Of a stretch of 64,000 nucleotides of DNA, positions 6,789-46,156 are shown piece by piece. The notes below the pieces were generated by a model. That model ran no database searches. It saw only the letters and a program-made list of their open reading frames with translations, and had not been told where the DNA came from. Each line of letters opens with the position of its first letter. Position 1 is the stretch's first letter. The translations under genes were made by a program, and so were the position numbers. This DNA is from Hoplostethus atlanticus (Eukaryota > Chordata > Actinopteri > Trachichthyiformes > Trachichthyidae), in the NCBI GenBank assembly GCA_034670405.1, contig JAXDDX010000001.1:6498001-6562000 (forward strand), read 5' to 3'.

Positions 6789-6791
<3 letters not shown>

Positions 6792-6819: not shown

Positions 6820-6823
<4 letters not shown>

Positions 6824-13110: not shown

Positions 13111-13133
13111 GTGTGTGTGTGTGTGTGGGGGGT
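13111..13133. repeat. (GT)n followed by a G run
   Basis: Eight GT units running into ggggggtg. Confidence 0.9.

Positions 13134-13408: not shown

Positions 13409-13410
<2 letters not shown>

Positions 13411-13485
<75 letters not shown>
13411..13485. repeat. (CA)n microsatellite, about 75 bp
   Basis: Uninterrupted CA dinucleotides, the longest simple repeat in the window. It abuts a LINE/SINE 3' end on its right. Confidence 0.98.
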
Positions 13486-13487
<2 letters not shown>

Positions 13488-13499
13488 CACCTTTAATGA

Positions 13500-13935
13500 C
13501 CACAGGGAGAAAAGGGACATTCCTGTTGACGATGATTCCTGGACGATCCTGACTGAGCGGGCGCTTGCGTTCTCCTATCTGGGCAGGGTTGGCGCCTGCG
13601 TGGTCCCCTAGTCCTATGAGGTGTCGTTTGCTGTGATCCCCCACATCAGATCTGGATGTCCCACCATAATAAACTTGTATGCATTGTGTATATGCTGCTT
13701 GCCCAAACTCTGCATCTATTGCACGCCCAACCGTCCTGGTAGGGGGATCCCTCTCGGAGTAGCCCCTCCAGAGGTTTCTTCCAATTTTTCCTAAAAGGTT
13801 TTGAGGGTCCAAGGCTGAGGGATGTTGTGTACTAACCATTTATTGTTTCACATGTTGGGCACTGTGAAGCCCTTAGAGACTGTAACGGTGATTAAGGGCT
13901 ATACAAATAAATGTGATTTGATTTGATTTGAATTG
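13500..13935 (+). mobile_element. Truncated non-LTR element 3' end (LINE or LINE-tailed SINE)
   Basis: The stretch ends with cttagagactgtaacggtga, then gggctatacaaataaatg and a (TTTGA)n-type tail. This arrangement is very common at the 3' end of teleost non-LTR elements. Upstream, ggggatccctctcggagt and gaggtttcttccaatttt also fit the 3' region of these repeats. The 5' limit is uncertain and may abut the long (CA)n tract at 13411-13485. No RT motif is visible. A minus-strand open frame across it is a by-product of the repeat. Confidence 0.7.
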
Positions 13936-16900: not shown

Positions 16901-16989
16901 CAGTGGCTAAGCCAACACATGAATTAGATATTTTATAATTTTTCATTGATTCTCTCAGTCACAACAACACTGTGCTACCACAGCACTTT
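13936..16989 (-). other. Intron sequence, nothing specific
   Basis: Mostly unique. A pair of perfect palindromes lies at 15943-15960 (gtgcacgtgcac overlapping gcacatgtgc). The GC-richer part at 14440-14900 has no splice-bounded coding frame that I recognise. Confidence 0.45.
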
Positions 16990-17282
16990 GGTGTTAACAG
17001 GTGGAGGTCTGATCAGCAACTACAGGAAATGTTTGGTTGAGGTTATTGCTGCTAAAGGAGGTTCCACCAGTAACTTAATCTCACAGTTCACATACTTTTT
17101 CCAATCCATGATGTTTGAACAATATGTCCAATAAAGATTTGTAAAAGTAAAAATGTTTTGCGTGTTACTTCTTAAATCACATTGTGTTTATCTATTTTTA
17201 TGACTTTGATGAAGATCAGACCATATTTTAGAAGCCATTTATACAGGAACGCAGGGCTCGCAAACTTTTTCTCACAACTGTA
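16990..17282. mobile_element. DNA-transposon remnant, Tc1/mariner-like terminal region
   Basis: The text caactacaggaaatgtttgg, then gctgctaaaggaggttccac, cacatactttttccaatcc, gttcaataaag-like sequence and finally aactttttctcacaactgta follows the order of a repeat common in teleost genomes. That family ends in a terminal inverted repeat reading close to 'cacatactttttcttgccactgta'. Only one end is recognised here and no transposase frame is left. The family name is from memory and is not certain. Confidence 0.55.
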
Positions 17283-20200: not shown

Positions 20201-20670
20201 CACTGGGGAGATATTATCAATGCCCCTGTGAAAGCAAGGATGAGGAAGTTCAGCAGAATTACCAAGTACTCGTCGAAGAACTCAATTACAGTAAACAAGA
20301 ATAATTAATTTGTTGCCAGCAGATAATCAAACTGGATTAAGCTGATAAAACTGATTTTAAGGTGCTCTGCCAGTGAACATACTGAATGACCCAAAATGTT
20401 TCTAGTTTGATAACTCAGCCAGCTCCTCCTTAAAGCAACACATTGGGATATTTGATACACAGTCACTCATCCTGCCCCTTTGACAGCAATGAAGTTAAAA
20501 AGTTAGGGGCTATAAAAATGATATACATGACAACGGCATTTCATCATGTGTTGTACCAGCTCCCAGATACTCGCTGTTAGCTTGGGACCCAGAGGAGCTT
20601 CTGTATCTCCATGATAAACTCATCTGGCATGATTTATTAACTAGTGAATCACACTCTGCTCTCGCTCCAC
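17283..20670 (-). other. Intron sequence, nothing specific
   Basis: Contains an A16 run at 18052-18067 and the short repeat tail at 18282. Otherwise unique AT-rich DNA. Confidence 0.5.
18282..18350 (+). repeat. Teleost interspersed repeat tail ('gtaagtcgctttggataa' core)
   Basis: The segment contains ttactgtaagtcgctttgga followed by taaaagcgtctgataaatga, a sequence found in very high copy in ray-finned fish genomes. It is one of the strongest indications that the window is teleost. It looks like a 3' end only; the body upstream is not recognised. The class (SINE tail or DNA element end) is not assigned. Confidence 0.75.
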
Positions 20671-20674
20671 AACG

Positions 20675-20702
20675 CACACACACACACGCACACACACACA
20701 CA
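20675..20702. repeat. (CA)n microsatellite, interrupted
   Basis: CA tract with one CG interruption. Confidence 0.94.
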
Positions 20703-23700: not shown

Positions 23701-25549
23701 TGCTATTACCCATGAGTGCTGCAAGATGCCCAGCCTAAGTGAGATGCCGTTTGCTTTCAAGGACACTTAGGATCCCAAGGTACTTGTTGAAGAGGAGGAA
23801 TATTATTAACCCCAGTGGCATGGCCTTCCATTTCTTCATATTTCACAGGCAGAACCGTCAAACCATTATATTAGAACATTTCTTTGAATGGTGAAAGCTA
23901 ATTTGACTTGAAGAAAATTGTTCAGTGTAAGGTCAAAACAATGCCACAACAATGGCGGAAATGGGGCACTGTAAAAATAACTAGACAGGGGAGGAAACTT
24001 CAGCAACACAAGCTGTTCTTTCTTTCTAGGCCAGTGTGCAGCAGCTTGCCATGACTAGACACTTGTCTGAGTAAAAAAAGGGAGGTAACACACTTTTACT
24101 TCAGAGAAAAGCCAGATGAGAGTTGATAGATGCACAACTTGCTTTTAGATTTTCAGCTTGAACATTCACTTACTTTGGGCAACTTTGTAAGAGACCTTGA
24201 AAAATCTCAGACGAAAAATTAGCCTCACTCCCCTTCTCAATAGTTATGATGCCAGATGAGATTGGAGAAGCTGGAGCCACTGTCCGAAATTAACTTTTTG
24301 GCTCATCTGCCAAGGGCTGGTAAACTTAAAAAATAAATACCTGCCAAGAATACGTTTTACCAGGCAAAATAATTAATATAAATTCTTCATACAAAAATGT
24401 CACCTCACCTGATTTCAGTGTTTGTTTAAAAGTTTGAGGAAGGAAAAGTTTGCAGAAGTTTAGCCGCTTCCACTTGGTGTAGAACCAGCATTAACAGGCA
24501 GCCAACCACACAGACAGAACCATTGTCTTGCTATATAATTTGCTCACGGTCAGAGACTAACAGCCAGCAGGGACAATGTCTGAGAACAAGACCAAAGACT
24601 GCACATAACTGAAACATGTTTTGTTGTCTCAAACTAAAGTTACTGCCAGTGTGGTGGGCGGTTTCAGACCCTGATTGAAGTGAGTGTAGAAGAAACAAAC
24701 CTGCTCAAACTCAGGTAGAGCAGGTGTGCTTTTACTCTTGTCTTTTCCGTATAGGACATGGCAGTATGACAATATTCTGTCTACCATCCTCAGTGACACA
24801 AGACTCTGGAGCTCCACTATAATTAACCCTGGCTGGGCTCCAGCCCAGGTAGTGCAGGGGAGAAGGCCCACTGACTGCCAGCATGTCTGGCAGACACCAT
24901 CCATTCCCCAAACCTGGAGATGATCCTGCACGGGAGACACTTTGACACTCTCTACCGCATACACGGTGGATTCAGCAGTGCTTCGGCCAACAAACCCATC
25001 TGTGGAACTCATTATTAGCTATTCATTGCTAAAGACTCAAGCAAGGCCCTCAACGCAGAGATATTTTCAAAGTTGCCTCCATATGATATCATTATTCCAT
25101 CAGATCATTCTGTGGCTCATGTTGAATTTATTTTCTGAATTCATTCTTTTTCCTTCTTTAGATGGTAATGAGTAAATATGGATAATAGCAAAAATATGCT
25201 TACTGCATTTACGAAGTTAAAGAAACATTAAAATGTGAATTATGTACAACTACAACTATGTGTATAATGTTTGGAAACCTTTCCACAGCATCCAGAAGTG
25301 CTGAGCATTATTTTGCATCAGCATTTCTTAAAAGAGCCCATAAGAGCTCTAATATTGTAGATATCCTCTCCATCGTCATTGGATAAAGAGAATCCATAAG
25401 CCCCTCATTGTTTGCAGTTTGACCAGGTGCTTGGCACGTAAAAACCCACATTCATCTGCCAAAAACTTCTGGCTCGCGTACAAGACTGCAAACATCTCTT
25501 GCTCACTGCTCTGAAATGATTTTTTTTTGAGAACTCACAGTCTGTGTGG
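20703..25549 (-). other. Intron sequence, nothing specific
   Basis: One CpG-rich patch with a gtgtcc/gcgtcc hexamer series at about 21251-21280, and a CA tract at 21741. No exon recognised. Confidence 0.45.
21741..21768. repeat. (CA)n microsatellite, interrupted
   Basis: CA tract with one CT interruption. Confidence 0.93.
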
Positions 25550-28450
25550 TCAGAAGAACACAAAAATATATATTTAAATAAAAAGGAAAGTAATAAACTA
25601 TGGATATCACATAATTGTTGTATAAAAATGAAACCTTTATCTTTAATTAGCCTTTTATTTATCTTTTATTATAATCTTTTATTTTCCAGCTCCAATTAAT
25701 GAAATGCATACTATCACACATAAATCAAACTAATCATACATGCCATATTTTTTCATGTTCCTATTTGAGCAAAATTTACCATCTACCAAAGATATCTTCC
25801 TGAAATGTAATCTTTTGTGCTGCCTTGTGATGATGAATATGAACTTGAGGGTAACCTGTTCCTTACAAAAAACAGAATTCAATTAATATTTAATTTGTCT
25901 GCAAATTAAATTATTGAGGAAACATGAGGGCTTTTCATAATTTCTCTGCAAGTTTTTCTGAGATTAATTTGGGTGTTTTCATCAAAGCCAACTTTACACC
26001 AAAGCAGCTACATCCCCTCCCCTTTCCAGTTTTGGCTGCACTTCCCTTTCAAAATGATTGATTCATGAATGGATGACTGCACAGGCCTGGTGTGTAATTC
26101 ACTATGTCTTTCATGTTGCTAACACAATCTGGTCTTAAAGATCTCAACATTTTGCTCACTTATTCTTTTCCATATCCCATTTCACCACAATAGATAAGGG
26201 GTTTTGAAATTAAATTAGACTGTAGAAAACATGATAATGATACAAATCCTACAAAAACTCACAGTAGTTTACGTTCGTCCTGCTCCTCTTCCTAATTACC
26301 GATGCAACAGCCAAATTCTAATGATGTTGACCTTCTTGCAAAATAATTCTCCCTAGCTTTCAAAATCACCTTTTCATCTGCTAGCCTAAAATTGCAAGCA
26401 ATTGACAGTTTCATATGTTAGTCCTTTAACTAGAAATATGGCTTGATTGTTATAATTTACTGCAAGGTCTGCTTAACGAAAAGTCACATCATGTGTCACA
26501 TGTGTTCAGAAGACTTGCTGCCCTTTGATCCAAATGCTGCTTCTCTAGCAAACTCACTGTCAAGTTATTAGTTGTCAGACATGCAAAAAGCAAAGCAATT
26601 TTCTTACAGTAATTTAACCATTAAAATCTCAATAATTGGTTATTGCTTTATTGACAGTGATTTATTCCATAGAGTTTCAAAGTGAATGGAATCCTGTAAG
26701 CAGAAAGCAATGCAACTTATATATGATGAAACACTTGAGCCAGAAATGAGAGAGACGTAACAGAGATAAGCATAAATCCAAAAGGTAAATCTTTAAAGTG
26801 CTTATTAAAACGTATTTGACTTGTTAGAATACATGTCCTGCTGTTTCACATTCTGAGAAAGCGTTGGCTGTCTATTTTGGTGTATTTCAGTCATCCTAAT
26901 ATTTCACATGCCACACCATGCAATGAATTTAACCCCAACAATCTAAGATCAGGTCCTAGCCTTATCTGGCCATTCAATTCTAGGGGTCTTCTTTGCAAAG
27001 AACCTACAAGCTTCTAGAAAGAGGATAACGGTGGGACGGAAACTCTGCAGATGAAATGATGCTCCCCGTTCATTTGTACGACAGCACATGTAGACATTTT
27101 GCAGAAGATTTTGGGAAGGTGAGTGGCCCGAATTAGCGAGAGGAGAGGAGTAGACCTCTCCGCTACTTCATACAAATTTTCAAGCAGCCAAAGCAGGCAT
27201 TAACCAATCAGATGAATAGTGTGTGTCTGCTTTATTAAGTTTGATCACAAACGTAATCACTGTAATTTGTTCATCTTGATAGAATGGAGAAGAGCAGAGC
27301 AACAGCAATGATCCTCTTCCTGCGATCCGTGGTGTAGCAACGAAATGCATCTGTATTTTCTGAATTTACAACCAGGGTCTTATCAGTGGTGTTTTGTAGA
27401 ACCTGCTTCACTGACAATCATTCTCAACAAATGAAAATGATTTACAGAACAACATTACTTGCATGCATTTATAGTCAATCAGTATTTATTTAGTAGGTAA
27501 TCCTTCCATGAAAGCAAAATCTGCATCCATTACAAAAATGGCCACTTCAAGGCCCCACGAGGAGGCCAATATTTTGGAGCATAGTATTGTCAAGTATCAG
27601 GGGCTTTGTAAGAGGATTTAAATTACTGGGAAGAAAAAATATTCATCTTATCAATGCTGACTTTTCAAAAGAGTTAACATTATTATCGCATGGAATGTAG
27701 ACATTGCTATCTCAATAACTTTGCTGCTCTATCAAGAAATATCAGAAATGTGAATTATAAAAAAATCTTCAAGAGATTCTGAATCCCTGCTTCTATTTTC
27801 CTTTACTTGATTTGAAATGAAAAATGACTTATTTTTTTCTCATTAAATAGACAGTGGCATAAATCATTGTAAGGAATACATCACTGAACCTGGACTGTTG
27901 TTAAGGGTCAAACAGTATCCAAATGTACGACACGGGTTGAAACTACCCAGTGCTCTGCAAATCAGCTGGGCACAAAATACCCTTCTGTTCCCACTGTCAC
28001 CTCCTGGTACCTTCACGCTTTGTGGATATATCTGGGAGGGAGGGGGAGGCAGGGGAGAGGCAGAAACCAGGGGCTGAGGCCGAGGAGCATGGATAAATTA
28101 GCCAAACCACTTAGGTGATTTCAACTAAAATTAGCAGTGCTGCCTGTGGGCTCCATCAATTTTGAACTTGCTCAAACTCTGACAAGCATGGGGGAACTTT
28201 TTCCCCCTGGCCCCGGTATCTAGGAGCCCCCTCTGTCTGCCTCTCTCTCTTTCCTCCTTACACCCTATCCTCTGCTTTCCCTCTACATTTCACTATAGAG
28301 AGCTCCAATTAGGGCTCTCAGCCACGTTGCATGTCCACTACAGTACATGAGATTTCTAGAGATTCCCTTTCTTTATCTCTCACCTCCTCGCCTTGATGTA
28401 GCAGGCACCTGAGCAGTATTCAAATGAAGAACATTTTCCAGGGTTCACTG
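25550..28450. other. ORF-poor, AT-rich intron block; possible enhancer cluster
   Basis: No open frame of 60 codons occurs on either strand from about 25.2 to 28.5 kb, and I recognise no mobile element and no microsatellite. The sequence is AT-rich but complex. Around 28080-28200 the composition becomes more mixed (ggataaattagccaaaccac). It is either ordinary AT-rich intron or a block of conserved elements. Confidence 0.3.
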
Positions 28451-29619
28451 CTATAATATTAACTGAGCAGAAAAAAAGTAGACGGTTGAGTAACATTATT
28501 GCTACAAAACTGCACTGTGATTTATTTTCAACCCTCAAACTGAGCGTCCAACACCGTGTTCACACGTGCTCATGGTGTCTGTTGACACACAATGAACTGG
28601 TAGCCCAGAAACCACATGATCTCAATAGGGTGGAACACAATGGGCTGGAATCTCAAAGGACTCCTTCGACAAAGTTGTAATACAAATACTGGCAATGCGG
28701 CAACATAGATTTAATTTCATCTTTTTCCTGTTTGATAATGTACAACAATGGAAATATAATCAAATAGCAGTGACTGCCTGCGACACCCTTGTGTGCAGAA
28801 TAATATACCAATAATTTCTTAGATTGAATTGAATATTTTGTCTGGCACATGCAGGATGAATAGACAATTTCCTTCATAATCTAATGACATATGGGCAACA
28901 TTTATCTACATCTGGTTCCTCCTGGCACCATTTTTTTCTCTCTAACCAAATGGCCAAATTGCCTGTCTACCTCAACTGACAGGTGGCCACCCTGCACTGA
29001 AAAATTTAAATCACATTTTATGGTTAGTGAGTGTCAATTGTCTCTCTGGACAGCAATTCCAAAAGGTGCTGCAATGCCACATGCTGTCTTTGACACAACA
29101 ATTAGCGAGAAGATAAGCTCACACACACACAGTATTCCTGAATCATTTAATGAACAATAGAAGCAAGAACTCTATTAAGCCACAGAATAACTTGGTTTGG
29201 GGAACATTTCTGTATCCACATATGTTCATGAAATCAACACTAATTTTGAGGTGATTTTTATTACCATAATTAATTGCTCACAGTAGTTCAAGCTGCAGGG
29301 TGAATAGTGCTTTTCATTGCTAATCAGACAGCAACTCATCAGCACCCAGACAGCATACCTACTGAAACAGAGCACAGGAGCATGGAAAACCAAACACACG
29401 CGTACGGACACACATAAAAACAAAAACAAAACAACAATGGTTAAAAGGACGCTGCAGCGACTCACTAAGACAGTCAATCAGACATGCAAACATGCACAAA
29501 ATAGTGACGGTTCAAATTTGCTGCCTGAGTGACTAACCAAGACCACAGAGCCTGGACAGATGAAGACAAAGACATTTCACAGGAGGAAATGCATGGCTCC
29601 AACCAGCCAAGCAGACTAA

Positions 29620-29920
29620 ATTGACCTATTCCTTAATCGCTTTTAATGAAGACAATGTGAGCCCTGAGTGCCACTGAGACCTCGAGCACTGGCGCTGCCT
29701 GCGCACACTGCCGCAAACTGGCTGCCACACAAATGAAACAAAGCAGAGCTGCTGATTTTTAATTCTAAATTGTGAATTTCAAATCATCTCTCCCGGAGAC
29801 TACCTTTCCCCCAGCAGACATTCTCTAATTTGTCCAATTAATGGGAATAGTGTTCCAATTAAAATGTCATATCCAAATGAATTTAATTTGAGATGAAAAC
29901 TGCCTGACTTTGGTTGGTGA
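29620..29920. promoter_or_regulatory. Candidate conserved non-coding element
   Basis: Repeat-free, with several ATTA cores (tttgtccaattaatgggaat, ttccaattaaaatgtcatat) next to a GC-richer part (ggcgctgcctgcgcacactg). Enhancer-like texture only; no conservation data. Confidence 0.25.
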
Positions 29921-30840
29921 GACATTTTTAACAATCAGCGGAAATGAGCAAAGCTTATATTAACATCCGACTATTTTTCTTCTTACCATAAGATCATGTT
30001 CAGAAATATAAATGGCTAACTTGATTTATTGACATGTTATGTTCTCATTATTGGCTGTGTAGTTAGCAGTAAACATTACAATGATCAACACAGAATGCAT
30101 TCTTGTGGGAGCAGGATATTTGGATCTGACTGGCTCTTGTGTCCATTCATCCCCAGACCTGTGTGATGATGAGAGTCTATGTTTTGTCAGCTCCCACCAA
30201 GAGGCAGCTTAGGGATACCACTGAGACAGGGAGGTCAAATCAAATTAAAACCTTTTGATCACTCCACTGTACAACATCACAGCCGGCTGCCCCTTTCTAG
30301 CTATTATGTAACTCCTAACATCTGTTACTTCTTCGCAGTCTTTATGTCCGGCCTAAGAGCTGCAACATTATGCAATGGGTTAGAACAAGAGCTTAAATCT
30401 ACACGAAGACAGAGCAGAGCACCTGCATGGTTCAGACAGACATGCAGGATGGGAATCTGTTTCACCAAATAACAACCAAATCAAATAACACAAGGATAAA
30501 GGGTGTAGCGTGCAAATTGGATGACTTTTTCAATCTCCCAGGTGAAATAACTCTTAGTTGCTGAAATGTTAAATGAATTAATTTAGCTTCAACCTCCATT
30601 TTCTGCTGGGCCAGGACTGGTAAAAATGTAGGCAGACAAATGTTCTCATCTCTTGTGGGAATGACTAGCGGAGGACATTTCCCTGGGAATATGCGAACAT
30701 TCTTTATTCGGCATAACAGTTCCAGCAAACCTATTGTTTTGAGTTGACAAGGTGCTCCATGGAAGCACGTCGGCTCTTATATCAAATTCGCCATTCTGAC
30801 CTTCGCCCTAGTTTCAAGTGGGGGAAAAAAGAGCGCACGT

Positions 30841-30905
30841 GAAAGAGAGAGTGGGAGAGGGAGAGGGAGAGTGAAGACAGGAGAAGTTACAGAGAGGAGA
30901 TTTCC
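30841..30905. repeat. Purine-rich (GA/GGGA) tract
   Basis: Almost all purine on the plus strand (gagagtgggagagggagagg). It starts directly at a CACGTG E-box (30836-30841). Confidence 0.85.
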
Positions 30906-33440
30906 AAGGACAATTCCAACTTCCTAATGGAGTCTCCAGAAGCTGGAGACTGGTATGCCAGTAAAGAGGAGGGCAACAGGAACAACGGCTCCCTCTGGGG
31001 TTAAAAGCCTCTTAGTCTAACTTTGGTCAGGCCAGTGGTCAAGGGTACCAGCAAGATAACTAACCGGATATCTGGTAGGACAACTGACCCATCTACTGTA
31101 CATCCTATGAAGTTAGGATGAAGTTACAAGAAATCCATATCTAGCTGTTGAATATTGCTCCTTTCTTTAGGAAAAAAGTGTCTTCACACGCTACACATCC
31201 AACACTGAAGTTGGTTTCCTTTCTACTTAGATGTCCACGTCATCCCTCTTGGTTTGCATATAATTCTGACCTATAGAAGATTAATAGCCCTTGAAAGGCA
31301 AACTGTCAAGGGGGGGCTGATTTAAAACACAGCTGCATATTTTGTTATTAGAGACCTCACAATTCTAAGTTATGTTAAGAAATCATGTCTCGCAGATTGC
31401 TGCTGAAGTCACTTTCTTGTATAAAATAATGAATGAGCCGGATAGAATCGTTTCTGCTTTCCTCTATGACATCATAGTGCTATTTGGCAAGATGTTACAT
31501 GCACTGATAAGGAATCAGATTTACAAAAGCTTGTCAACATTATTGTAAGGCGATCTTAGTACGTTCTGCCAGACTGAATAACGTCCATACACCTTCATCA
31601 TTAAAACGTGTGTGTCCAATACTGTATTTTGCAAATATTCTATTTCTATATTCACTTGTGCCCTTTACACAGAAGTTATGGACATACTACACTCTATCAC
31701 AGAAGATACAAAAAAAAGTCAAAAGACTGTCATACTGTTACAAATCTCTTTTGTTACTTCCAGCCTGAAAAAGTGCTGAAAGTATTGCTATTGCACTGCT
31801 TTCCCCATATGCTTCCAGACATCATCAAAAGCCTATTTTTACTTTTTATTGGTAAATCATCAACTTTTATTTGAAAGTAAAACAAATGACAGACGTTTCA
31901 GCCCCTTGGCAGGCCGTCGTGTGGGCAGGACAGCAAAGCCAGGCAGCCTGACGAATGCCCAGCCAAGCCAAGCTGGAGGGAAGTAAAAGACACTCCTCCT
32001 CAAACAGGCCCGTCAGCTTTCAAAAAAGCAGCCATTAGCGAGTGCTCATCAAGCGGGAGCAGGGGCCCGTCCATTCCCTCAGCGGAGCGGAGCAAACGGC
32101 AGGCCACAATGCCTCTGTGGGAGGAAGGAGGCGGAGGACTACAGAGATGAGCCCTGGACCCAGTGGTGTTTCTGAGCAGAGTCAAGCCGCACGTCCCAGG
32201 CACACTCAATTCCCAGCCCAACTGTCACTGCTGGCACTCAGCTCAGCCCCTTCAAGCACATAATCTGTGCTCATATGGCTGTTAAACACCACACACTCCG
32301 GTCCTTCACTCATCCCATGCCATGGTATTGTTGTGTCTGCCGTCATTCTTTCTATTATTGAGCCATTAAAGGATTTGGATAGACAACCGTTTATCAGCAT
32401 ATGGTATCTTGATCAGCAACAAGGCATCTTCAGGACAATAGATTATTTGCGCATCTAGAAGCTGGTCAACTCTTCAGGATAATTCAGGAAATATCACTTC
32501 TCAATAGTCTGTTTTGGAGTATGACTATCTGAATCCTTTTGCTCATTGACGTCTGCATCATGTGAGAGGTGACTGAGATTCTTTCAAGTTAGAGGGAGAA
32601 TCATTGCATTAATCTCAGTGAACATGGAGGGGTCGAAGGCGGCACTCTGCCATGCTGGAGATTCCCACTGACGCCTATCTCTCCTGATGACAGAGCGATA
32701 ATGTCACATGGGCCCAGGTGAGCGAAAAATGGCAGCCTGCTTGATGCCCAGCCGGCTGCTTTAATTGGCTAAAACAAAGTAATTTGAGAGCAGTATGGGG
32801 GGCATGAGGGGGTAAATGATGGGACAGAAGGTCATTGCTTCTCTTTTACTTGCTGTGTGCCATCCACCAACACTCCCAGCATGCTCTACAGTTAATATTG
32901 AGATCTATTATACACTAGCCTTTCACCATCTGCTTTACACACTGAGAAACTGTGCTACACTCCTTGTTATTGAATTAAAAAAAAAAAACATTATTTTATT
33001 ATATGTCCATTTGAGGATATAGCAGTATGCTTTGATACTTGGGATCATAAGACATTATGATGTTAAAGCAACAAAAGAGCTTCTAACAAGCAAAGACCAG
33101 AGTCATTTTAAACTGATCTTCGTGTCCATATGACAAAGAACAGGGCACAATAATGCATGATGGCAATATAGAGAGTATTATTTTAATTTTATTTCAAACT
33201 ATACACTTATAGTACAGACTTATTTGTCTGACCACCTCAGGAATGGAGGTCATCAGAAGGAATGAAATGTTGGGAACATTAGATTAAAAGTTTAATTTCT
33301 GAACTAAAGCATATCCAGAATATGAAACATACTGTATGAGACATGCTAGGTACATTCTAATTGCGTGATGCATTTGTTTTGCCCCTAATGCCCATCCATA
33401 CTGTTCAGAACCCTCAATCAGAGAAACTGCTAGATGAAAA
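30906..33440 (-). other. Intron sequence
   Basis: A GC-richer stretch at 31890-32260 (ccagccaagccaagctgg) and one candidate conserved element at 32600. No coding exon recognised. Confidence 0.45.
32600..32810. promoter_or_regulatory. Candidate conserved non-coding element
   Basis: Repeat-free stretch ending ctttaattggctaaaacaaa then gtaatttgagagcag. Same reasoning as other candidates: unique sequence with homeodomain-like cores in an otherwise repeat-dotted intron. Confidence 0.22.
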
Positions 33441-33445
33441 AAAAT

Positions 33446-33477
33446 TCAATAATTGTCAATAATTGTCAATAATTGTC
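33446..33477. repeat. 10-bp tandem repeat (TCAATAATTG)3
   Basis: Three exact copies plus a 2-base partial. Confidence 0.95.
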
Positions 33478-33674
33478 CTTGGTAAAATGTATCAAGGCTT
33501 CCACAACAGAAAAATACTGGATAAAACAACAGGTCATAACAAAAGGTCTTGTATTTTCTAGTGTATAACCACCTTCATATGCAGGCCTGTGTCAACGGGG
33601 TACATATTATTACTATCATTACACACTGTGTGTGCACGAGCCCAGAAATGTGTGTACTCAAGCGTGTACTCAAG

Positions 33675-33770
33675 CGTGTGTGTGTGTGTGTGTGTGGGGG
33701 CACGTATTCATGCATGCAGGTACATGTGTGTGCATGCGTGTCTGTGTGTGTGTGCTTGTTTGAGTGTGTT
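33675..33770. repeat. Compound GT-rich repeat
   Basis: (GT)n then gtgcatgc and tctgtgtgtg blocks; preceded at 33652-33675 by two copies of the 12-mer gtgtactcaagc. Alternating purine-pyrimidine throughout. Confidence 0.9.
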
Positions 33771-34511
33771 GAGATACATGATGCACCTGTGTTGAACAAA
33801 TGACCCCCATGCCTGTGTGGGTTTCTCCCAGGTGTGGCTGATGCATGGATCATGTGGTGCAGAGTGCTCGGGGCAACATTGGCGCAATCGTCCTGGGATC
33901 ATCTCTGAATGTGGCCCTGAATTTGCATTGAGTGGTGGAAAGGTTCACCTCCTCAACACAGTCTACTATGCATCTGAGGTGCAGAGGAGGTGCATGCTAG
34001 ACTAACCCCCTGCAGGCAGAATCAGGTGTTATCTGTCTGACTAGGGACACCACCATCAATCTCTCCTGTCCACTTTCCTTTGCCCAGAATCAAATCAGCA
34101 CAGGGAAATACATCTGTGCTGACGATGTAGAGACAAGATATGCAATCTACTGTATCAGACTCATGCCGTGTTTGCCTGATGTTCGGATTCAACTACATAT
34201 TGCTGATAATGTATTTGTCACTGTATGCAACTGGCATAGCCGCAAAATTGTCAAAGAATATTATTATAAAATGAGATATTGCCATTCCTCTTACAGATGC
34301 ATTAGCTTCCTCAACTTTTGCACACATATTAGTGTTACATTGCCAAGAGGAGCTATGAGCAGCTATATTCCTGGTGTTACAAGTCAACTAATAGCTTTTA
34401 TTCATCAAAACATACAGAATGCATAGTACAGAGTAGTACAGTAAAGAGTCATTGAGAGTCATTATAGTTACAACAGTGACCTTCTTTTGACAGAAGATTC
34501 AGGTGAAAGTT
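33771..34511 (-). other. Intron sequence between the GT repeat and the LINE fragment
   Basis: No RT motif is readable here, so it is not assigned to the LINE, though a decayed 5' part of the element could extend into it. Confidence 0.4.
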
Positions 34512-35690
34512 TGATTTTAACCCTTTTAGATCTTGGTGCAGGCTTTGTCACTGTAAACTGACTAGAATTGTAATTCTGGGTTGGCATCAAAGACATAGCA
34601 TATAGAGTCATTGATTCAGCTCATACCTCTCACCTAGAACATTACCTGTCACTATAGAAAATTCCTCTTTATCATCAACACGTTACCTATGGAGTTCCTC
34701 AAGGTTCAATTTTAGGCCCCATCCTATTTTCCATTTACATGCACCCACTTGCTCATGTCATCCGTAAACAAATTATTTTCTTCTGTTGCTACACCTTACA
34801 TTGCTAAATAAAACCTTGAAAACCAGTGGCTCAAACCACCTAGCAACACTGCGATCAAGTGCCAAATCAAAATCCACATTTTCTGTAAATCAGGAGTAGT
34901 TTCATGGTGTCCTGTTGATCAGGTACATTCTATGTAACAGTGTAACTATATAACTATGTCCTAGGGTCTAATCTGACCTATGGCACCTTTGATGCTGGTG
35001 ATACCCCTCTCTCTTTCCTGTCTCGTTTCACTGTAAACTGTCCAACAAATCAGACATGGCATGAAAATAGCTTTATTTTCCCCCCAAACACATTTGAATT
35101 GTTTCATAATGAACTAGGTCAGCCAATGTGAAACCAGCTGCCAGAAATTTGGGAGTAATTTTTGATGCTGATTTTAATGAACAGGTAAATACAGTGATGC
35201 AGTCTTGTGAACAGATTTTTATCATTTAGTAACCCGGAAAAAGTAATTAACGCTTTTATTGTAACTGTCTTTATTTTGGCATCAATCAAAAGTCTATTCA
35301 CATCTTCAGCTTGTTCAAAGTACAATGGTTAGGATTTTAACTAGTACAAACAGATGAAATCACGTCATTCAAATTCTGGCATCTTTTCATTGGTAATTGA
35401 TTTTAAGAGCACAGGTTTGGCCCCAAGCTATATTGCAGTCCTCTAAGCCCCCTTTGAGCCAGCATGCAGCTTCACATCCTCCCAAAGTCTATACTTGAAA
35501 CTAAAGATGAATGGGCATTTACCATCAAGACCCCTATGCTATGGCACGACCTGCCTGAGGAGCTTAAGCTAGCAGAATCAGTACCTTTTAAATCACTTAA
35601 AACCTATTTTTATTGACCTGCTTTTATGTGATGTCTTTTATCCTACTGTTTCTCTACACTGTACAACAAAAAAAATCAAAAATCAAAAAT
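34512..35690 (+). mobile_element. Degenerate LINE reverse-transcriptase fragment (L2/CR1/Rex1-like clade)
   Basis: Remnant of a non-LTR retrotransposon ORF2. At 34523-34558 the translation LLDLGAGFVTVN matches the RT palm motif A block (family form LDLSAAFDTVDH), but the catalytic aspartate in the FDT position is lost. At 34688-34741, in the same frame, YGVPQGSILGPILFSIYM is a near-perfect motif B block. The following FxCYADD box is decayed to CYTLH. After at least one frameshift, WHDLPEELKLAESV followed by FKSLKTYFY and a stop at 35614-35616 matches the C-terminal end of L2/Rex1-type proteins. The copy ends in an A-rich tail with aaatca units near 35668-35690. It is 5' truncated, carries several stops and cannot make protein. 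It lies antisense to rora. Exact family needs a repeat-library search. Confidence 0.85.
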
Positions 35691-35750
35691 GAGCATGCTT
35701 CCTTTTAATTAATCTGTAAAACAAGGCTTTACTGCTGACTATGCCTTGGG

Positions 35751-35766
35751 CCACTAGGCGGCAGGG
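35751..35766 (+). promoter_or_regulatory. CTCF-like motif
   Basis: ccactaggcggcaggg matches the CTCF core CCASYAGRKGGCRS with one mismatch. It lies about 60 bases beyond the LINE tail, so it could also be part of a dispersed repeat. Occupancy is not shown by sequence. Confidence 0.35.
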
Positions 35767-38700
35767 AGTTAAAAAGGAGACAACAGCACAGCGAGAGTGA
35801 AAGTGAACAGAGAGATGCAGAGGAGAGCAGGAGGGGCGGAGGTAAGTGAAAAACCTCTGTTGACACCTGGTCTGTCTGATAATCTGATCTGTGTATGATG
35901 GCTCAGAGTTTGAAAGGCACTTTGTCCAATTAGAAGAGTGCAGCAAATTTCCACCTGCCCCTGACAGAGATGAAGTGGCTCTTTCAGAAGACATTGTGGC
36001 AGTGAGCCAGCTAAGAGAGCCCAAACACTGCTAGTGGAGCAAGCAGAAATTAATGAGCATCACAAGCCACACTCGTTTAACACAAGATGACATAGAATGA
36101 ATATTCCCCCAGTTTAAGACTGTCTATGGTAGTTTATGGAAGAGAGTAAGATGAAGGAAGTTTTGTGTTAACTGTTAACATGTGATAAGAACATGTTTCT
36201 GAGGTTGATGTTTCTGAAAGACTGAAATTCTGTTGGTTTTGGACATCCGTCTACCTGTCACATTTCTCAGAGTACTGTCCTTGTTTAAACCAAACTGCAT
36301 CTGAACTACTATGGTAGGTTCATCATTTGTAAGAGACCACGACCTATGGCTATGGAAATGACAGCAAGGCAGACAAATCAACCACTCGGCATGGCTAAGA
36401 CCACCCAACAGAAAGACCAGTTACAAATAGAAACACCTCCTATTTTTCTATGTTAATACAATTTGAATGCAACAGTACTTTGCAATGTAATTATTATGCA
36501 TTTGTTATTCTTTCTGATGTACATTAAATTCTCCTCAGTTTATAGTACAATGTATGAGGAAACGACAGCAACCAAAGCCTTCTATCTTCCTATTTCTGTA
36601 TGTCTATTTCTGTCTGTCACATAAAAATAGGCTTTTAACAACCCAGCATGGCGTTAATTATTGCTCCTTAAGTACTACATTAGTAAAATAAAGTAGCAAA
36701 TATTGATTGATAAGACAGATTATTTGTCAGTGAATGAGAGCATGATTCGTGTTCCATACATGGTGAAGAGTGACTCTAACTTTCAATCACTGCCAGGGAG
36801 CAGCACAGCAGCATTGATTGAGCCCCATTGTGGCACACTCTCTGTCTTGATACGCGTCCTACAGCAATCAATCCACACACACAAGATATGAGAGATCAAA
36901 TATTCATTAGCAACTTATTCAGATTCAAAATCTGTTTTTTGAAAATAACAATGGGATGGAATAGTCTTTGACAGTCTCTGACAGTCTTTGACAGGCAGAT
37001 TACAATGATTGTATTACACATGAAGTACGGCCAATTGTGATCACATTTTACAGCATCAGTTTGAGTTGTGTTCATTATTGTTGTCTCCCAGAGAGAATGT
37101 GGTTGAGGAGCTAGATTACTTAACAAAGATTATAGTGTTATGGATAATCACAACGAGACAAATGGCCTCTTCAGTTTCATAAATACTCAAGCAAAGACGC
37201 TGTATGCACACGTGTTTATAATGTCCAATCTCATGTATTATGGACAAACATGAAGGTCAGTAAAGACCTCTGTCCTTGGAAAATACACCCTTGACTACTG
37301 TGAGGTATTTAAATAAGAACAAGCTAATAGTTTCACACGGTATGATTCAACATGATTAATACTTATGGGTATTGTTTAACCACTCCAGTCCATTGGCCCT
37401 CTGTAATTGGCAAAAAAAAACTGAGAGATGGGCTCCTATGTTAATAATTAGTTGGTTCTGCACTCTAAAAAATTCTGTCCAACCTCACCAGATTTTAATC
37501 AAAGGCTGAAAATAGTAGCTGATTGTAATCGGCACTCAGAAGTCACCAGGGGTGTTTGAAGAGCCCGTCAAGCCTGAGAGTGGAGCTAATTCGATTAAGT
37601 GGCGGCAGTACCTGGAGGGGACGGATCTGTATCTCTCCCTTTTTTATTTATGAGATTAAGTCGCGCTTGTTACTCCAATATAAATAATCAAGCCAACAGA
37701 AATGACACTGATTTTCAAGTTGTCTTATCTTTCATGTCTCCAAAAGTTTTTGTTTTTCAGGTGTCAGAACCAACTTTGTTGAGTAATACTCTAAGAGTAT
37801 TGATGCAGCAAAAAAGGAAACAAAGGAAATGATACGCGTCCTTAATAAGGTTAATACCTTAACCCATGTGACAGAACCAAAGGAACTTCAAAGTATATAC
37901 TGGAAAAATGTTCTGCTCCTGCTACGTGTATTCTTCATTATAATTTGTAAAATGTGTGAGTGGATTCTTGTACATTAAACACAGTGTCAAGTCCAGGCAT
38001 GTTAAATAATGCTGCAGAGACTCACAAAAAGAAGTTAATTACACAAATCCTCTAAACAGGTTGGTTTGGACCGAGTCAAATAAAGCTTCAGCAATAAACT
38101 ATTCCTTCTACACCTTCTTCACCCAGTGGCAATTTTAGCCATGTTTAATAACTTGTAAAGACATAAGTACAAATATTATTGCACAGTATTTACACCAAGA
38201 TAACTGCATAGGGGAAGATACATGGCTTCCTCTGTCTCTCTACTGTGCCTTAGCCATAGCTACTCATACACTCTAAACAAGACAGAATGCAAGCTTTTCC
38301 ATTTTCTTCTTGTTCTGGTGTCACAGGCATCCAACACTCAACATACTCAACACACAGTCCTTAACGCAGCGCTGCCGGGAGAGCCGTTTAACCTACAGTA
38401 CGCAAGATGAACAACAGCTAAGGGACTCTTGAGGTGTTGTTCAAATGCCACAGACCTTACACTGTTACCTCTTGCTGTTTTAAAGCACGCACATGTGGGT
38501 AATGTCTGGGAGAGCCCCTGTGGCTGGGAGACCCTCAGAGCTTTTTGTCTCAGTGTTGTGCAACCTGCACTAAGAGGCAGACTTGAATGGCTTTAGGTTC
38601 ACATAACTTCAATGGGAAACAGCTTGTATGTATCCAGACGTAGGAATGATGGTTTGAATGTTATGACTGGTCAAAGGTTTTGACGCGTTCCCAGTTGAGT

Positions 38701-39339
38701 GCTGGAAATTTCCGGCCCGAGGAGCTTACCTACCTGGTCAGGAGCTTTGCATTCTCCAGACTGGTGGAGCTGTGAAAGGCTTGGCCCTAGATGTAACACA
38801 AGAATTCCTCTGAGTGATCCTTTAGACCCCTCTCACCACCTCTCTCCCTCTAGGCCTCTTCTGAGGGGCCTATTTCATATCAGAGCAGCACAGAGCCAAG
38901 CTACTCTACAGCAGCAGTACTTAGGTCACAGTGTACCGCATTAAATTTAGACTCCTTTAACACCCTCCAATAATGCATCTGGAGTATTACCGGTCATTAC
39001 TATTCAGACTTTTCTATCTAAGATACAAACTTCTGTAAATGGGCCATAGATCTGAGCCATCATTCACCACTGGAGATTTCACATCAAATCTGGTGCCTGT
39101 CACCAGCCGAAACTTCCTCGCCAGCCCCAGTTGAGCCACTGGTGATTAAACTCCAAAATAAACTGTCCCACAAGAATAAAACTTTCAGATTTGGTCTAGG
39201 TTATACTTGGTGTCTCTAAACTTTTTTAATTAATACAGCCAATCAGGGCTTACCCTGCATTGACTATATATATATATATGTGAACCCAATGAACATGAAA
39301 ATACAAATTACCAACTAAATGCAGTTACACCGCAATAAT
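35767..39339 (-). other. Intron sequence, nothing specific
   Basis: Unique AT-rich DNA with one 10-bp tandem repeat at 36963. No features recognised. Confidence 0.5.
36963..36994. repeat. 10-bp tandem repeat (AGTCTTTGAC)3
   Basis: Three copies, the middle with one change. Confidence 0.94.
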
Positions 39340-39548
39340 TCTCCGGCTTTGACTCCATTCTTGCAATAGTGTAACGTTTAGTCTACGGTCATAAAGGATG
39401 TCTTGTCTGTATGTGAGGTCCCATTTTGTTCTGCAGCTAGATTGCAGTGTGTAACTGTCTTGCAATATGCCAGCACCAATTATCCTAGTCACATTCCTTG
39501 CGCACCAGTTGTACTTGGAGAATAAAAGTAATTCTGATTCTGATTGAA
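39340..39548 (+). repeat. Interspersed repeat 3' end with 'gattctgattctgattg' tail
   Basis: Ends with cctagtcacattccttgcgc, a tacttggagaataaaag stretch and a short (TTCTGA)n tail. This matches the 3' end layout of a common teleost non-LTR repeat family. The upstream limit is estimated from the start of the coherent sequence and may be wrong by tens of bases. Confidence 0.55.
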
Positions 39549-40274
39549 ATGGTTTCAAATAACCTGAACATTGTTAAATTGAGATTTCTGTATCATGATT
39601 GTGAGTGCTACAGGATATAGTTGATGAAAACATAAATATTTAGAAAAACATTGGCAATAATAATACATATGGATTTCAGTCATGTGAACTTTGAAGCTAC
39701 AGGCCCAGATGTTTAGGCTTAATGATAATCCTGGGTCAAGTGTTGAACTCGTTTTCAAAAGCATTCCTGGTACACATAATCGGAAGACAGTTTTCACCAG
39801 CAGTGTGTCTGCAAAGCAGCTTGCTACAATAAAATCCACGGGGGTCCTTTCATGCAGGTTCCCTGGTACCAAATACAGCACATGTTGCAACATAACCACA
39901 TAACCATAGGTTATTGTATTATTACTTGCATCCTTTAATATGACAGAAAAGAGAGATGCTAAAAAAAATTTTTTTTTAAATCATTTAAAACGTATGGTAG
40001 TTATTATCTATAAAGTAGCTAAAAAATATATGTACTTACTTTATGAGCAATTACAGTAGTAGCAGTGCAAAGCAAATGGTTTAGAATCAGAATATAAAAA
40101 ATAAACTCAATATCATATTTCATTATTTTTATTTTTAACTTTAACCTTAAGCATATAGGGATATAAAGCACTGGGCTCTCTTTCAGACAGGCTAATAATG
40201 TTGGGAAATGGAGAAGTAAAAATGGGGTTCTACATGCATGCACCCATTTTACACTGAAAATCTGGACAGACATA

Positions 40275-40308
40275 CAGACAGAGAGACAGACAGACAGACA
40301 GACAGAGA
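40275..40308. repeat. (CAGA)n microsatellite
   Basis: Tetranucleotide tract with slight interruptions. Confidence 0.93.
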
Positions 40309-41829
40309 CCTACAAGACAAAGTCCCAATCAGTGCTCATTTAACTCCTAATTATTGTAGCCGTGTCTTATCTTGACACTCATAGGTTCATGCTCATTACT
40401 TAAGCCTGGTTCAGAAGAGGGTGATGCACAAAAGAACATTTTAAAAGTTAACGCCGAAGTCTAAACTAAGAGCAGATGCCACCGTCTATGCAACAGATTG
40501 GTGTATGTGTGTGTGTGAGTGCTTATTCAATGAGGTACTGGTCATCTCCTTCAGTTTAAATAATGATTTTGATTTTGTAGACAGTTGAACGCAGGAGAAC
40601 AGAATGCGTGGGTATGTGAGTATATGTGAATAGGTCAATTACTGAGTATTGACTTTCAATAGGCTAATTGTAGCCAGTACGTTTAACAATGTAACTCCTA
40701 GCCCTTGAGCTAACACACAACATAAGGCTGTCTGACATCAACAAGAGAGTTTGTGACATTACCACCTCACCCACATCTAAGAATTGAAAATAAAGGAGGG
40801 ATAAAACCCAGTATTATGTCATAGGCAGACTGCCAGGGAGAACGAGATACCTAATGGAGTTCCTCTCCCGGATCTGTCCAGGCTGAGAGCACGGCTAAGC
40901 CTATACCTGTATCCTCATGCTCTCCAGCGGGCAGGGGACCCTAATTCGTTGAATTTGAGAATGCCACAGCCTCACTAATGTTGCTGTCCACTTGAGTGCT
41001 GTGTGAGCCCCATGCCAACTCCAGGCTTTCTGAGATTTTGTGTAAAACCTTTTTTGAAAGCCTCTGCTTCCCTGCACCCTATCCGTCTTCTGTCAGCAAC
41101 AGCTAAATACATATTGCCACTCCAGCCGACAACTCTCATTCCACTCTCCACAAATAGAACTGTTTGGTGAAAGTCACGTTTTGTGTTCATGAAGAGAGGA
41201 CCAAGTAGTTTCATACTATAGCTTTTTAATTTGGATTAGCGACTACTCAGCTACCAAAACTGCCGTTCCAGGCGTGGTTTGTTGTCCACTACGCAACAAG
41301 CGACAACAGTTGGCTAGATCTTTTTTCTATCGAAAATAGTAACACAACTAGTGATGGAAAAATCTACTAAATAACTAATATTATAGCATGGTAAGTTGAA
41401 AGCTGTTTGGTATATTTAGTGTGAAAAGATCAGAGGAGTGATGATCTAGATATTATATTGAGGCAGACTGATAAACCAAATGTAGTGTAATATTCTCCAC
41501 TGCAGGAAACCACGCTGCACTTCACCAGGTGACAGCTCTCACAATGTACCCGCACAATGAAAACAACATAATGTTATCTGCCATGCTTGCTGATACACTA
41601 TTAGAGCTGTTTGCCTCATACGGCCAGCCATCAGTTCCACCACTTTCTCCCTATTGTGGGAAAACGATGTTCAGATGACTCGTTAGACACTGAACACGAG
41701 TATAACAAGCATTTACAAAGCCGCAGCATAAGAAGCACCAGAAAAACAGACTAGTGTGGTCAATCCCATATCCGTAACATAGCCTACTCGGATCTTCATC
41801 ATCCAATGCAGTCTACTACTACAGTACTA

Positions 41830-41830
<1 letters not shown>

Positions 41831-41872
<42 letters not shown>
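41831..41872. repeat. (CA)n microsatellite
   Basis: Perfect CA tract of about 42 bases, 2.7 kb into intron 1 from the rora donor. Confidence 0.97.
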
Positions 41873-41876
<4 letters not shown>

Positions 41877-42496
41877 GGTTAACAGAGAGGATCAGGGACA
41901 CCACGGCTCTTATCAGATCTGCGGCTTCCCAGTGCAATTGTGAGGTTTCAGCCAAGCCTCTGCAGAGACCATCAACTTACATAACCAAGCCATTAATATT
42001 GATTGTTTCCAAATTTGCGAACTGAGGGATCTTGCAATATGAAAATAGCACCCTTTCTTCTTTCCAGTAATGATATCCACAACCCTCCAAGGCCTGTTCT
42101 CTGACCCACTCAAGTCTTACAGCAGAGCTTCTGCTGAAGCAAGCCCTTTCTACTTAAAAGGTATTAGCACTCAGGGTTAAAACAGTAAATGCTCTGCATG
42201 CAGGATAAGAAATGTGCATCCTCAGAAAGTCTAATGCAGCTGGTGGACTTGAGCAAGTCGTCTGCGGTATTTCAGATGTTGGTTTCAGTGGCTATCCTAA
42301 ATAAGTCTAAGAGAGTCTGAACATAGCACCGTAATCCTAAAAATGCCTTACAAGTTTGGAGCTCAACCATGAGTCATAAACCGTTTTATTGTTTTATTTG
42401 TTTTTGATCCTACACTGGACTGTGGCACCACTATAAACCGATGGCAATTACTTCTTAATACAACACATGTACTTTTGGATGAACACTTCGTTAAAT

Positions 42497-42520
42497 AAAA
42501 TTAAAATTAAATTAAATTAA
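42497..42520. repeat. (AAATT)n tract
   Basis: Four to five pentamer units. Confidence 0.85.
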
Positions 42521-44513
42521 GTCAACATTTCTTTATGAAAGCTACAATTTCATAGCTTTCCTTTTGCTCACAGTATTACTGAATATTTTCAACACTATTA
42601 TTAAGTTGTGAGACCAATTGGTATATAGTAATATATTCTAAACATATTCCAACATATGTTCATGAACACGAGGCGGCAGACCACAACACGCTGCAATTAC
42701 TACGTGATCCTGTGAAGCCATATGTCAAAGTTACAGATAGCAACTTAAGGACATAATGATTCTGAAGATTAGATAAAAAGAAACTTGACTGCCTGTTGCT
42801 TTTTATACTTATTTATATTAAGGTCTGGAGTATAATACTAAGTGGTATGATAGCCTATGATACACACTATTTGAATCCTATAATAAAATGTGTATTAATG
42901 TATTATAATTTCATAAATATCCACACACATTAACACCTGAACTTCTCCAAACTTTTCTTCAAGATCACACTACACGTTCTATTGTTACTGATAGTAAGAG
43001 GGGCGAAATGAATGCAAAGAGAGAGGTTACAGTGCAGGGAAACTCCTTCAGAGCTACAGAGGTTGTCCCACTGAACATGTTTTTTCACCCATTCAGCATT
43101 ACATAACAGACCAAAGGCGTTCTTTTTCCTGTCTCTCTTTCCCAGACGCACTTTAATCCTGTGCATAAACGGGTGGGGTGAATATGGGTCAGCAGGTTAG
43201 GAGTGTCTCAAAGTCAGACTTGTGAAAAAGAAATCAACCTATGAAGCCTCCAAAACGACCTGTCTTTGTCCCCGCTATTACATAAGTGCATGGGCTCTAC
43301 CAACTTACAAAGTGAAATAGTGTCGCCTTACGTGATATAAATACCCACTGAGGCACACTGATTTATTTTCGATGATACAATCGTGACGGTTACAGGGACT
43401 CGGTGAACTCCTGTGCAAAGTGAAAAGATCTGCGGTGATTTCTGCTCTCAGTTGCGCGCCTCTGTTTATGGCTAAACCTGTTACATAACCAGCTTACATT
43501 CCACATTCACCATATCACACTCTAAATATACCCTTGCGCACAGGAGGAGTGCGCACACAAAACCCGCCGTGCAATGAATTCGTTGTCATAATCTACAGTG
43601 TTCGCCTCACTATATTGTATACACCAACTCTGTTTGTAAGAATCAGCCGAGAAATCGCTATTTCTTTGAACTTGGATGAGCCCGGTTAGCCTGTACTGGA
43701 GGCAGTCTGGAGGGGGGTGTGGTTAAATACTGTCTGTACTGTACTACAACATGGACGGGACGTGGACAAATCATGTTAAAATGAACTAGTCTTCACCAGC
43801 AATGCACACTTTGACGGGCTAATTTACCAAAAAAAAAGGCCTGTGGTTTTACCGTCTAATCATGTGCGTCTTGGAGGCAGTCGGCAGATGCCGATGCCTT
43901 CATGTTTGCAACAGTATTTCAGAGCTGGCGCTTAACAAATTCCAGCTGCTGGGGCGTCTTTTGCACACAATAATAGCTTGTATCTATTAGCTGAATAGGT
44001 ATAATTTCGGCCAGAACGCGTTTCATGTTGTATCGACAATAGTAGAGGGCACGTCCCTACAAAGGAGAATGGGACTAATCGATAAACTACAGTTTCCAAA
44101 AGTTCACTTTTGACACTTGGAGAATAACACGTTTGGGTACACAGGTTGGCCTGTCTTGGCGCTAAATAAAGCGTCCGTCTATCAATTTAACTTATTTGGT
44201 AATGGATGTATCTTAAATTCAGAGTGAATGTGACATCTGTGACCATATCAACCCTCTATGATTTGAGCTGTCAGTGGAGCCTGAACAGCAGGGCAACACA
44301 GACAGAGGCACTATGGGCAAAACCCGTGATGGTACAAAAAAATACGACCCTGTGATTGATTGATTGATTGCTTGCTTGATCGTAGACGATCTGCAGTTAT
44401 TTAGAGGGAAGCGATTATTTGACACTCTGTTGGTAGAATGAATTCATTTTGAAGTTTGATCAAATTCCACGATCGATCAATATTTCTCATACAACAAAAT
44501 GAGAAATATAGGT

Positions 44514-44526
44514 CTGCTTACCTCTG
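44514..44526 (-). other. rora: Splice donor of rora exon 1
   Basis: On the minus strand the exon end reads CAGAG followed by GTAAGC, a near-consensus U2-type 5' splice site. The intron begins at the complement of position 44521. The boundary splits the glycine codon after base 1, matching the established RORalpha1 exon 1/exon 2 boundary after the SSTSR segment. Confidence 0.9.
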
Positions 44527-44675
44527 TTGGTGCTTGAGCAGGTCTGCCTTCGTACCGGGGCTGGATGGTCCGCTTTCCGGAGGGTCTCCAGGTTTACCGG
44601 GGTTTCCCTGACCGGGGTAGCCGGCTCCGAGACGCTGTTGCCCGGGTCGCTCGCTGGATCTGGAGGGGACTCCAT
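44522..44675 (-). CDS. rora: rora exon 1: N-terminus of nuclear receptor ROR-alpha (RORalpha1 type), partial gene
   Basis: RORalpha is a monomeric nuclear receptor and transcription factor that binds ROR response elements (A/T-rich flank plus RGGTCA). It acts in the nucleus in clock, cerebellar and metabolic programmes. This exon encodes 51 residues plus the first base of a split glycine codon. The protein starts MESPPDPASDPG and ends with RETPVN, then PAPVRRQ and SSTNR. The mammalian RORalpha1 N-terminus also has MES at the start, then RETPLN, RK, PAPVRRQ and SSTSRG in the same order and at similar length (about 55 residues before the glycine). The middle, residues 10-22, is divergent. The ATG has A at -3 and G at +4, and an in-frame TAA lies at 44697-44699, so this start is well supported. 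The exon ends AGAG|GTAAGC, giving a phase-1 intron as in the known gene. The zinc-finger and ligand-binding exons are absent and expected left of position 1. Which teleost paralogue (roraa or rorab) cannot be decided from this exon. Identification is from remembered family sequence, not a search. Confidence 0.9.
44540..44665. promoter_or_regulatory. CpG-rich segment over rora exon 1
   Basis: CG dinucleotides are visibly clustered within the exon (ccggggtagccggctccg, cccgggtcgctcgctgg), in contrast with the AT-rich, CpG-poor flanks. This fits a small CpG island at a developmental gene promoter, though part of the bias may simply be codon content. Confidence 0.45.
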
Positions 44676-45015
44676 GTTGAATTTCAGCTTTACTGTTTAA
44701 CTATCGCTAGTACTTAAAACTAATTCTATGCGATATGTGAGCTCCGAGACTACGTCTTGCTATCTATTTTAGAGTAGAAGTAAGAAATGAGAAATGCGAG
44801 TGTGTCTGGAGGTGGGTGTGTAGGTTTGATTGTCCACTAGCAGCGCTAGTGAGTGCTCCAGTCATGCAAACTGAAAAGGGAGAGGTTGTCAATAGCCGAT
44901 GAATAGATGTAGGCCTAAAAGTAATCCATGCCGATCGACCCTGTGCAGTTTTAAACGGGAATAACAGTTGTTGCAGTCTAGTCTTGTCCAGCTGTTTTTC
45001 ACGTCTATGCATTAT
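44676..45015 (-). promoter_or_regulatory. rora: 5'UTR and putative core promoter of rora
   Basis: This lies immediately upstream of the ATG. An in-frame stop occurs at 44697-44699 and no other in-frame ATG lies between it and the start. A TTTAAAA box on the minus strand at about 44948-44955 is the best TATA-like candidate, which would put a start site near 44920 and a 5'UTR of about 245 bases. A near-palindrome, actag-cagcg-ctagt, lies at 44836-44850. Exact transcription start and box assignments are inference; only the position upstream of a solid first exon is firm. Confidence 0.4.
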
Positions 45016-45295
45016 CTTCTTTCGAATTTGGGCAAAAATGTAAGTAACAGGACCTGGGCTGCTATTGAATCTGAAACTGAACTGAACTGCCTAACATTGT
45101 AAACATACTTACTGGCTTGATGTGCTAGTTGCATAAAACAGTAACCTGCAGCTTTAAGTAGCATTGATTTGATACGATGTTGAAGAGAATTAAAATTAAT
45201 ACTCATGGAAAGCCCAGCTGTTAGGCTAAATAGGTCTATGTTGTTTTAATCACAACTTGAAACACCATCTCTGGTCGCAATCATAGTCATCGCCG

Positions 45296-45320
45296 TCATC
45301 ATCATCATCAGCAGCAGCAA
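45296..45320. repeat. (CAT)n(CAG)n compound trinucleotide
   Basis: Run of CAT units passing into CAG units about 0.6 kb upstream of the rora ATG. Related CAT/AAT runs occur at 45552-45568, 45936-45954 and 46166-46191. Confidence 0.88.
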
Positions 45321-45870
45321 TATATTTGTTTCAAATTGACAGTCAAAAGCCATGGAGGTAAACATGAGAGGTGGTAGAGTTATTCATGAGAATGTGAAGA
45401 CATTCCACCACAGACAGACCATGGAGGTCTTTCCTCTCTGCTGCAGATAGATACTCTGGGCCATACAATCATGGTGGTAATGAAGACTGCAATTGACCGT
45501 TCATTATCTTAAGAATCCAAACAACAAGAATGAAAGGGCTCTTGTTTCCATCATCATCATCATCACCACCATGCTTGGGGGAGGAGCGGACAGCATTTTC
45601 CTCAGTCGTCTGCACGAGCAGGCGTACAGCCCCGTGTCTTGGTTAGAGAGTAGCCTGTGTATGTCCTGTCTCTCTGTCTCATAAAATAGCGAAATGAGAC
45701 GATCGTCTTCGGAGAGAATATACGACAGCACACTACAGTATCGTGCAAGATACCAGACGTCGCTCTGGCAGCCATGCACTGCTTGTTACAGAGCAATTAC
45801 AAACACCATGCTTCCTGCATGTGATCAGCGGGCAGACTCCGAGGCAGAACCACGCCTCTTTAAAACGGTG

Positions 45871-45876
45871 CACGTG
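45871..45876. promoter_or_regulatory. CACGTG E-box upstream of rora
   Basis: A perfect E-box, gcacgtgg in context, about 1.2 kb upstream of the rora ATG. CLOCK/BMAL1, USF and MYC use such sites. CACGTG is not enriched over the whole window, so only its location makes it notable. Confidence 0.25.
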
Positions 45877-45954
45877 GACTTTGACATGGTCCTGGTCTTC
45901 AGTTCAGATCCAGAATACGCATTAATAAGGGGAAATAATAATAATCATCATCAT

Positions 45955-46156
45955 CCCTAACGTTAATTCACTAGGCCTTATATGTTACTATAGTATTACT
46001 ATATGTACTTATAGAGTGTCTGGAGTACTCTGTAGTCACTCTAATATTCCTATAATATTTCTATAGGGATATCATTATAACATCCCTATAATATTTCTAT
46101 AGGGATTCATAGTTCTGACATGTAATAAAGGATTAGTATAGTTCTTTTCGTAAGGG
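45955..46156. mobile_element. Candidate MITE, about 200 bp, hAT-like target duplication
   Basis: The left end reads ccctaacg and the right end cgtaaggg, inverted with one mismatch. Flanking 8-mers are atcatcat and atgattat, a possible diverged 8-bp target duplication as made by hAT elements, although the left one sits in an ATC-rich tract. Inside, the self-complementary block ccctataatatttctatagg occurs twice as a direct repeat (about 46050-46071 and 46085-46106), and an actatagtattactatat block lies near the left end. No coding capacity. Terminal repeats beyond 8 bases are weak. Confidence 0.4.

Follow-up and report, generated by a model that had tools for sequence, protein, structure and literature searches.

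The minus-strand segment at 44675–44522 of the window (the whole 64-kb stretch of DNA analysed here) belongs almost certainly, judging from its letters and their translation, to the nuclear receptor gene rora, as the first coding exon of its alpha1 isoform. The exon identity and the direction of the gene, with the gene body lying to the left on the minus strand, are well supported. They rest on the match of the encoded peptide and its specificity among five ROR N-termini, on the signals for translation start and splicing, and on the CpG-rich surroundings, and these same grounds support the claim of the first-pass annotation that the locus is the minus-strand RORalpha1 first exon of rora. The coordinates of the exon and of the other features are collected in Table 1.

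Table 1. Features located in the 64-kb window.
Feature	Position	Strand	Details and basis
rora alpha1, first coding exon (almost certain)	44522..44675	minus	51 codons + 1 base (phase 1), peptide MESPPDPASDPGNSVSEPATPVRETPVNLETLRKADHPAPVRRQTCSSTNR; tblastn and translation
5' splice donor GTAAGC, following GAG at the exon end	44516..44521	minus	donor matrix score
Start codon, context AACATGG	44673..44675	minus	sequence
Stop codon TAA in the same frame, 24 nt upstream of ATG	44697..44699	minus	sequence
Part of the presumed intron 1 of rora alpha1, which would continue beyond the left edge	1..44521	minus	absence of other rora exons
UnaL2-type LINE 3' tail	18285-18338	+	full-length Rfam match, 55.3 vs gathering 55
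Reverse-transcriptase-like fragment (PF00078)	near 34673-34792	+	21.1 bits (cut-off of 29.6 not reached), E 0.00027
CpG-undepleted tract, candidate promoter region	about 43000..46000		uneven, with a CpG ratio as low as 0.35 at 45001-45500
Weak TATA-like TAAAATA, candidate core promoter, 96 nt upstream of ATG	44765..44771	minus	pattern only

The peptide encoded by the exon was compared with residues 1-56 of human RORalpha1, for which, as for the other ROR N-termini used, a provisional reference sequence served. The alignment showed 32 identities over 52 positions when the split Gly is included. With this Gly the pairwise local score was 140, and none of 2000 peptide shuffles reached this value (maximum 60). 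When this reference N-terminus was searched against the window with tblastn, with the low-complexity filter and the composition correction switched off, the exon locus scored 58.2 bits (E 8.65e-15) and the next match 18.5 bits. In the controls, the best of 40 dinucleotide-shuffled windows gave 23.9 bits and the reversed window 19.6 bits. The alpha1 N-terminus was the only one of the five provisional ROR N-termini to match the exon peptide above shuffles; since those of RORbeta1, RORgamma1, RORalpha2, and RORalpha4 showed no match above this level, the alpha1 match is specific among the five. These results support the RORalpha1 N-terminal signature (RETPxN, PAPVRRQ, SSTxRG) that had been read from the sequence. 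A Pfam search with the 51-residue peptide gave no match, and a PDB match to a bacterial toxin subunit (E 0.59) was treated as chance.

Most N-terminal letters of the human reference are provisional. With 519 residues it falls a few short of the 523 of human RORalpha1, so that it probably has a small gap, for which the likeliest place is behind position 469. The reference carried the expected residue at all 13 positions that were checked, 12 of them published, with only 4 of the 13 falling within residues 1-56. The checked positions were S35, S100, S155, T183, S201, N202, K162, K469, K79, and K240 (PMC11099308), R37 and K38 (PMC11649617), and S39, which is implied by the R-K-S motif (PMC3847654). 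Literature searches with human peptide fragments returned no paper containing them. The RORalpha1 peptide strings, searched together with isoform names, were absent among the matches listed, and the first exon of teleost rora was not the topic of any title or abstract start among the matches listed.

The 154-base open frame proved exact in coordinates, strand, length, and peptide, and the strong start context and the upstream in-frame stop that had been claimed with it are also present. The donor, described earlier as consensus, is near consensus: GAG|GTAAGC scored as high as or higher than nearly all GTs of the window (10 of 7426 on both strands, itself counted, reach its score with a vertebrate donor matrix). 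It stands in phase 1 directly after the codons for SSTxR, and the junction therefore cuts the Gly codon of SSTxRG, of which the exon holds just the first base. The boundary of the human alpha1 exon we take to be the same, with a phase-1 end at the Arg before this Gly. With the human and mouse RORA alpha1 first exon (NR1F1) the exon shares, besides the phase-1 end, the N-terminal peptide (RETPxN, PAPVRRQ, SSTxR) and residues R37 and K38, and it may also share a very long first intron. It differs from human RORalpha1 in that the peptide is four residues shorter.

The composition of the locus was compared with that of the rest of the window. The exon is the GC peak: only 11 of 63846 windows of 154 nt have an equal or higher GC content, and all 11 overlap the exon. 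Its GC content at codon positions 1–3 is 0.62, 0.61, and 0.73, and that of the flanking 154 nt on either side 0.35 and 0.38. The highest ratio of observed to expected CpG among 636 windows of 400 nt (0.96, against 0.36 for the whole 64-kb window) was found in the one starting at 44401. Among the 3-kb segments scanned, the one that begins at 43001 has the largest number of CpGs (99 vs a median of 41). As the exon is the GC peak and lies inside the 3 kb with the most CpGs, a promoter around it is likely, and the CpG and GC content would suggest that this promoter is unmethylated. A pyrimidine-rich, acceptor-like AG at 44872-44871, whose home-made score is reached by 222 of 8494 AGs, makes a further non-coding exon upstream of the coding exon possible.

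Several observations concern the surroundings of the CpG-rich tract. Just downstream of the exon, in the presumed intron, positions 43251-44250 are also CpG-rich, with a ratio of 0.70-0.86 in 500-nt windows; this stretch may be regulatory sequence or an alternative promoter. An RORE-like match was seen at 43181 (+). At 45974-46106, at the upstream edge of the tract, there is a 35-nt unit with CTATAGGGAT, present in two closely similar copies (89%) and a third, weaker one (63%). The copies make a 30-nt inverted repeat, which is imperfect (73%) and has a spacer of 1 nt.

As no other rora exon was detected in the window, the left 44.5 kb most likely belong to intron 1, and the right side most likely lies upstream of the gene. 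The remaining rora exons are expected beyond the left window edge. In a tblastn search of the window with the 519-residue human reference, only three matches were obtained beyond the exon, with E values of 3.5–7.9. A degenerate pattern of the small second exon, as presumed for rora, matched twice in comparison with 1.51 matches expected, which is chance level, and the DNA of the match left of the exon passes into a CA/TG repeat. A scan for the second exon that was anchored on acceptors covered 1876 minus-strand candidates in the left 44.5 kb. The best of them scored 19/45 on a CA repeat, and the best of the plus-strand control scored 17. No second-exon candidate was convincing, which agrees with an intron longer than 44 kb but does not prove it. 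The provisional RORalpha2 first exon had no match in the window at E up to 1, and four matches to provisional RORalpha4 (E 0.19–0.96) were treated as chance. Human RORalpha1 has 11 exons and RORalpha4 has 10 (PMC11099308). According to Table 1 of the same paper, the human alpha1 transcript starts at chr15:59,308,794 and alpha2/alpha3 at 58,707,024, with alpha1 upstream. Because these starts lie 601,770 bases apart, a giant first intron is to be expected.

Contrary to the first-pass annotation, the left 44 kb are not featureless: they contain a LINE tail, a reverse-transcriptase-like fragment, and part of the CpG-rich tract, which extends over about 43.0-46.0 kb. The reverse-transcriptase-like fragment is probably what remains of a LINE within the presumed intron. 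Translated frames were scanned against Pfam at E up to 0.1; such whole-frame scans can miss short exons, so that the absence of other genes is not proved by the following results. In the right flank (44676–63991, both strands, three frames each) no family exceeded its cut-off, and the DUF2990 and DUF5841 matches below it were treated as chance. The three minus-strand frames of 1–44591 and two plus-strand frames of 16000–22498 gave no match. The three plus-strand frames of 34600–44591 gave only the reverse-transcriptase-like match below the cut-off. ARAGORN found no tRNA in the window, and the Rfam matches at E up to 0.5 to mir-297 (36.4 bits, gathering 90) and SCARNA7 (28.7 bits, gathering 65) were treated as chance.

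Two other explanations of the exon were considered. An open frame of 154 nt is by itself unremarkable in GC-rich DNA and might resemble RORalpha1 by accident, but the match of 58.2 bits stands against at most 23.9 bits in the 40 shuffled windows, and the failure of all 2000 peptide shuffles to reach the observed score likewise speaks against an accident, which makes this explanation extremely improbable. The segment might also be a relic of a rora duplicate (e.g., rorab) that has decayed or been partly lost, in which case the first exon would have become separated from functional exons downstream. Such events are known in fishes: losses of rorab were reported in sticklebacks, snailfishes, and salmonids, and some salmonid roraa duplicates have apparently been lost (PMC12154703; PMC8674837). 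The failure to find a downstream rora exon in the window would also fit a relic. However, the start, the frame, the donor, and the CpG-rich setting are all intact, and a dead promoter is expected to lose its CpGs, so we regard a relic as very improbable.

The preferred reading is that the exon is an ordinary orthologous exon, probably from a fish, in which case fish roraa and rorab would be the expected orthologue class. Both losses of rorab and duplications of roraa occur in fishes (PMC12154703, a preprint; PMC8674837). The preprint describes rorab as previously unannotated in its two reference genomes (PMC12154703), which fits the earlier remark that gene predictors easily miss exons of this kind; the first exon is not mentioned there.

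The exon peptide covers a cluster of modification sites known from human RORalpha1, where S35 is phosphorylated upon PKC activation (PMC11099308) and R37 is a reported PRMT5 site (PMC11649617), although another study assigned PRMT5 methylation mainly to the DBD (PMC11120602). K38 is reported to receive a single methyl group from EZH2, which DCAF1 reads so that the receptor is degraded (PMC11649617; for K38, also PMC9839724 and PMC3847654), and R-K-S is the sequence that was used to screen for EZH2 targets (PMC3847654). Human positions 35-39, S-A-R-K-S, read T-L-R-K-A in the aligned exon peptide. Thus, relative to the provisional human reference, the S35 phosphosite is Thr, and the EZH2 methyl-degron R-K-S (R37-K38-S39) of human RORalpha1 is R-K-A here, with R and K kept and S replaced by A. 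Because of these two changes, while R37 and K38 remain, RORalpha1 of this lineage might evade the methyl-degron control that EZH2 and DCAF1 exert in human, or might be under a retuned form of it, which we consider a rather unlikely outcome. If it were true, the turnover of the receptor would differ in this species (or in this duplicate). The change from RKS to RKA, seen in a single sequence, may be neutral drift, and the exon adds one sequence point on the variation of the human RORalpha1 modification cluster.

The gene rora is a clock and brain-development gene, and in human RORalpha the N-terminal domain acts with the zinc fingers in setting the DNA-binding properties. In the mechanism proposed for the locus, transcription would start in the CpG-rich tract around the exon, and the exon would supply the alpha1-specific N-terminal domain. 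The phase-1 donor would then be joined to the small second exon by removal of a first intron longer than 44 kb, and the exons of the DNA-binding domain would follow to the left of the window. The exon leaves the knowledge of rora unchanged. Its value is that of a small, correct annotation, which fixes a gene, its strand, and its likely promoter in 64 kb where almost no other coding sequence was recognised in the present scans.
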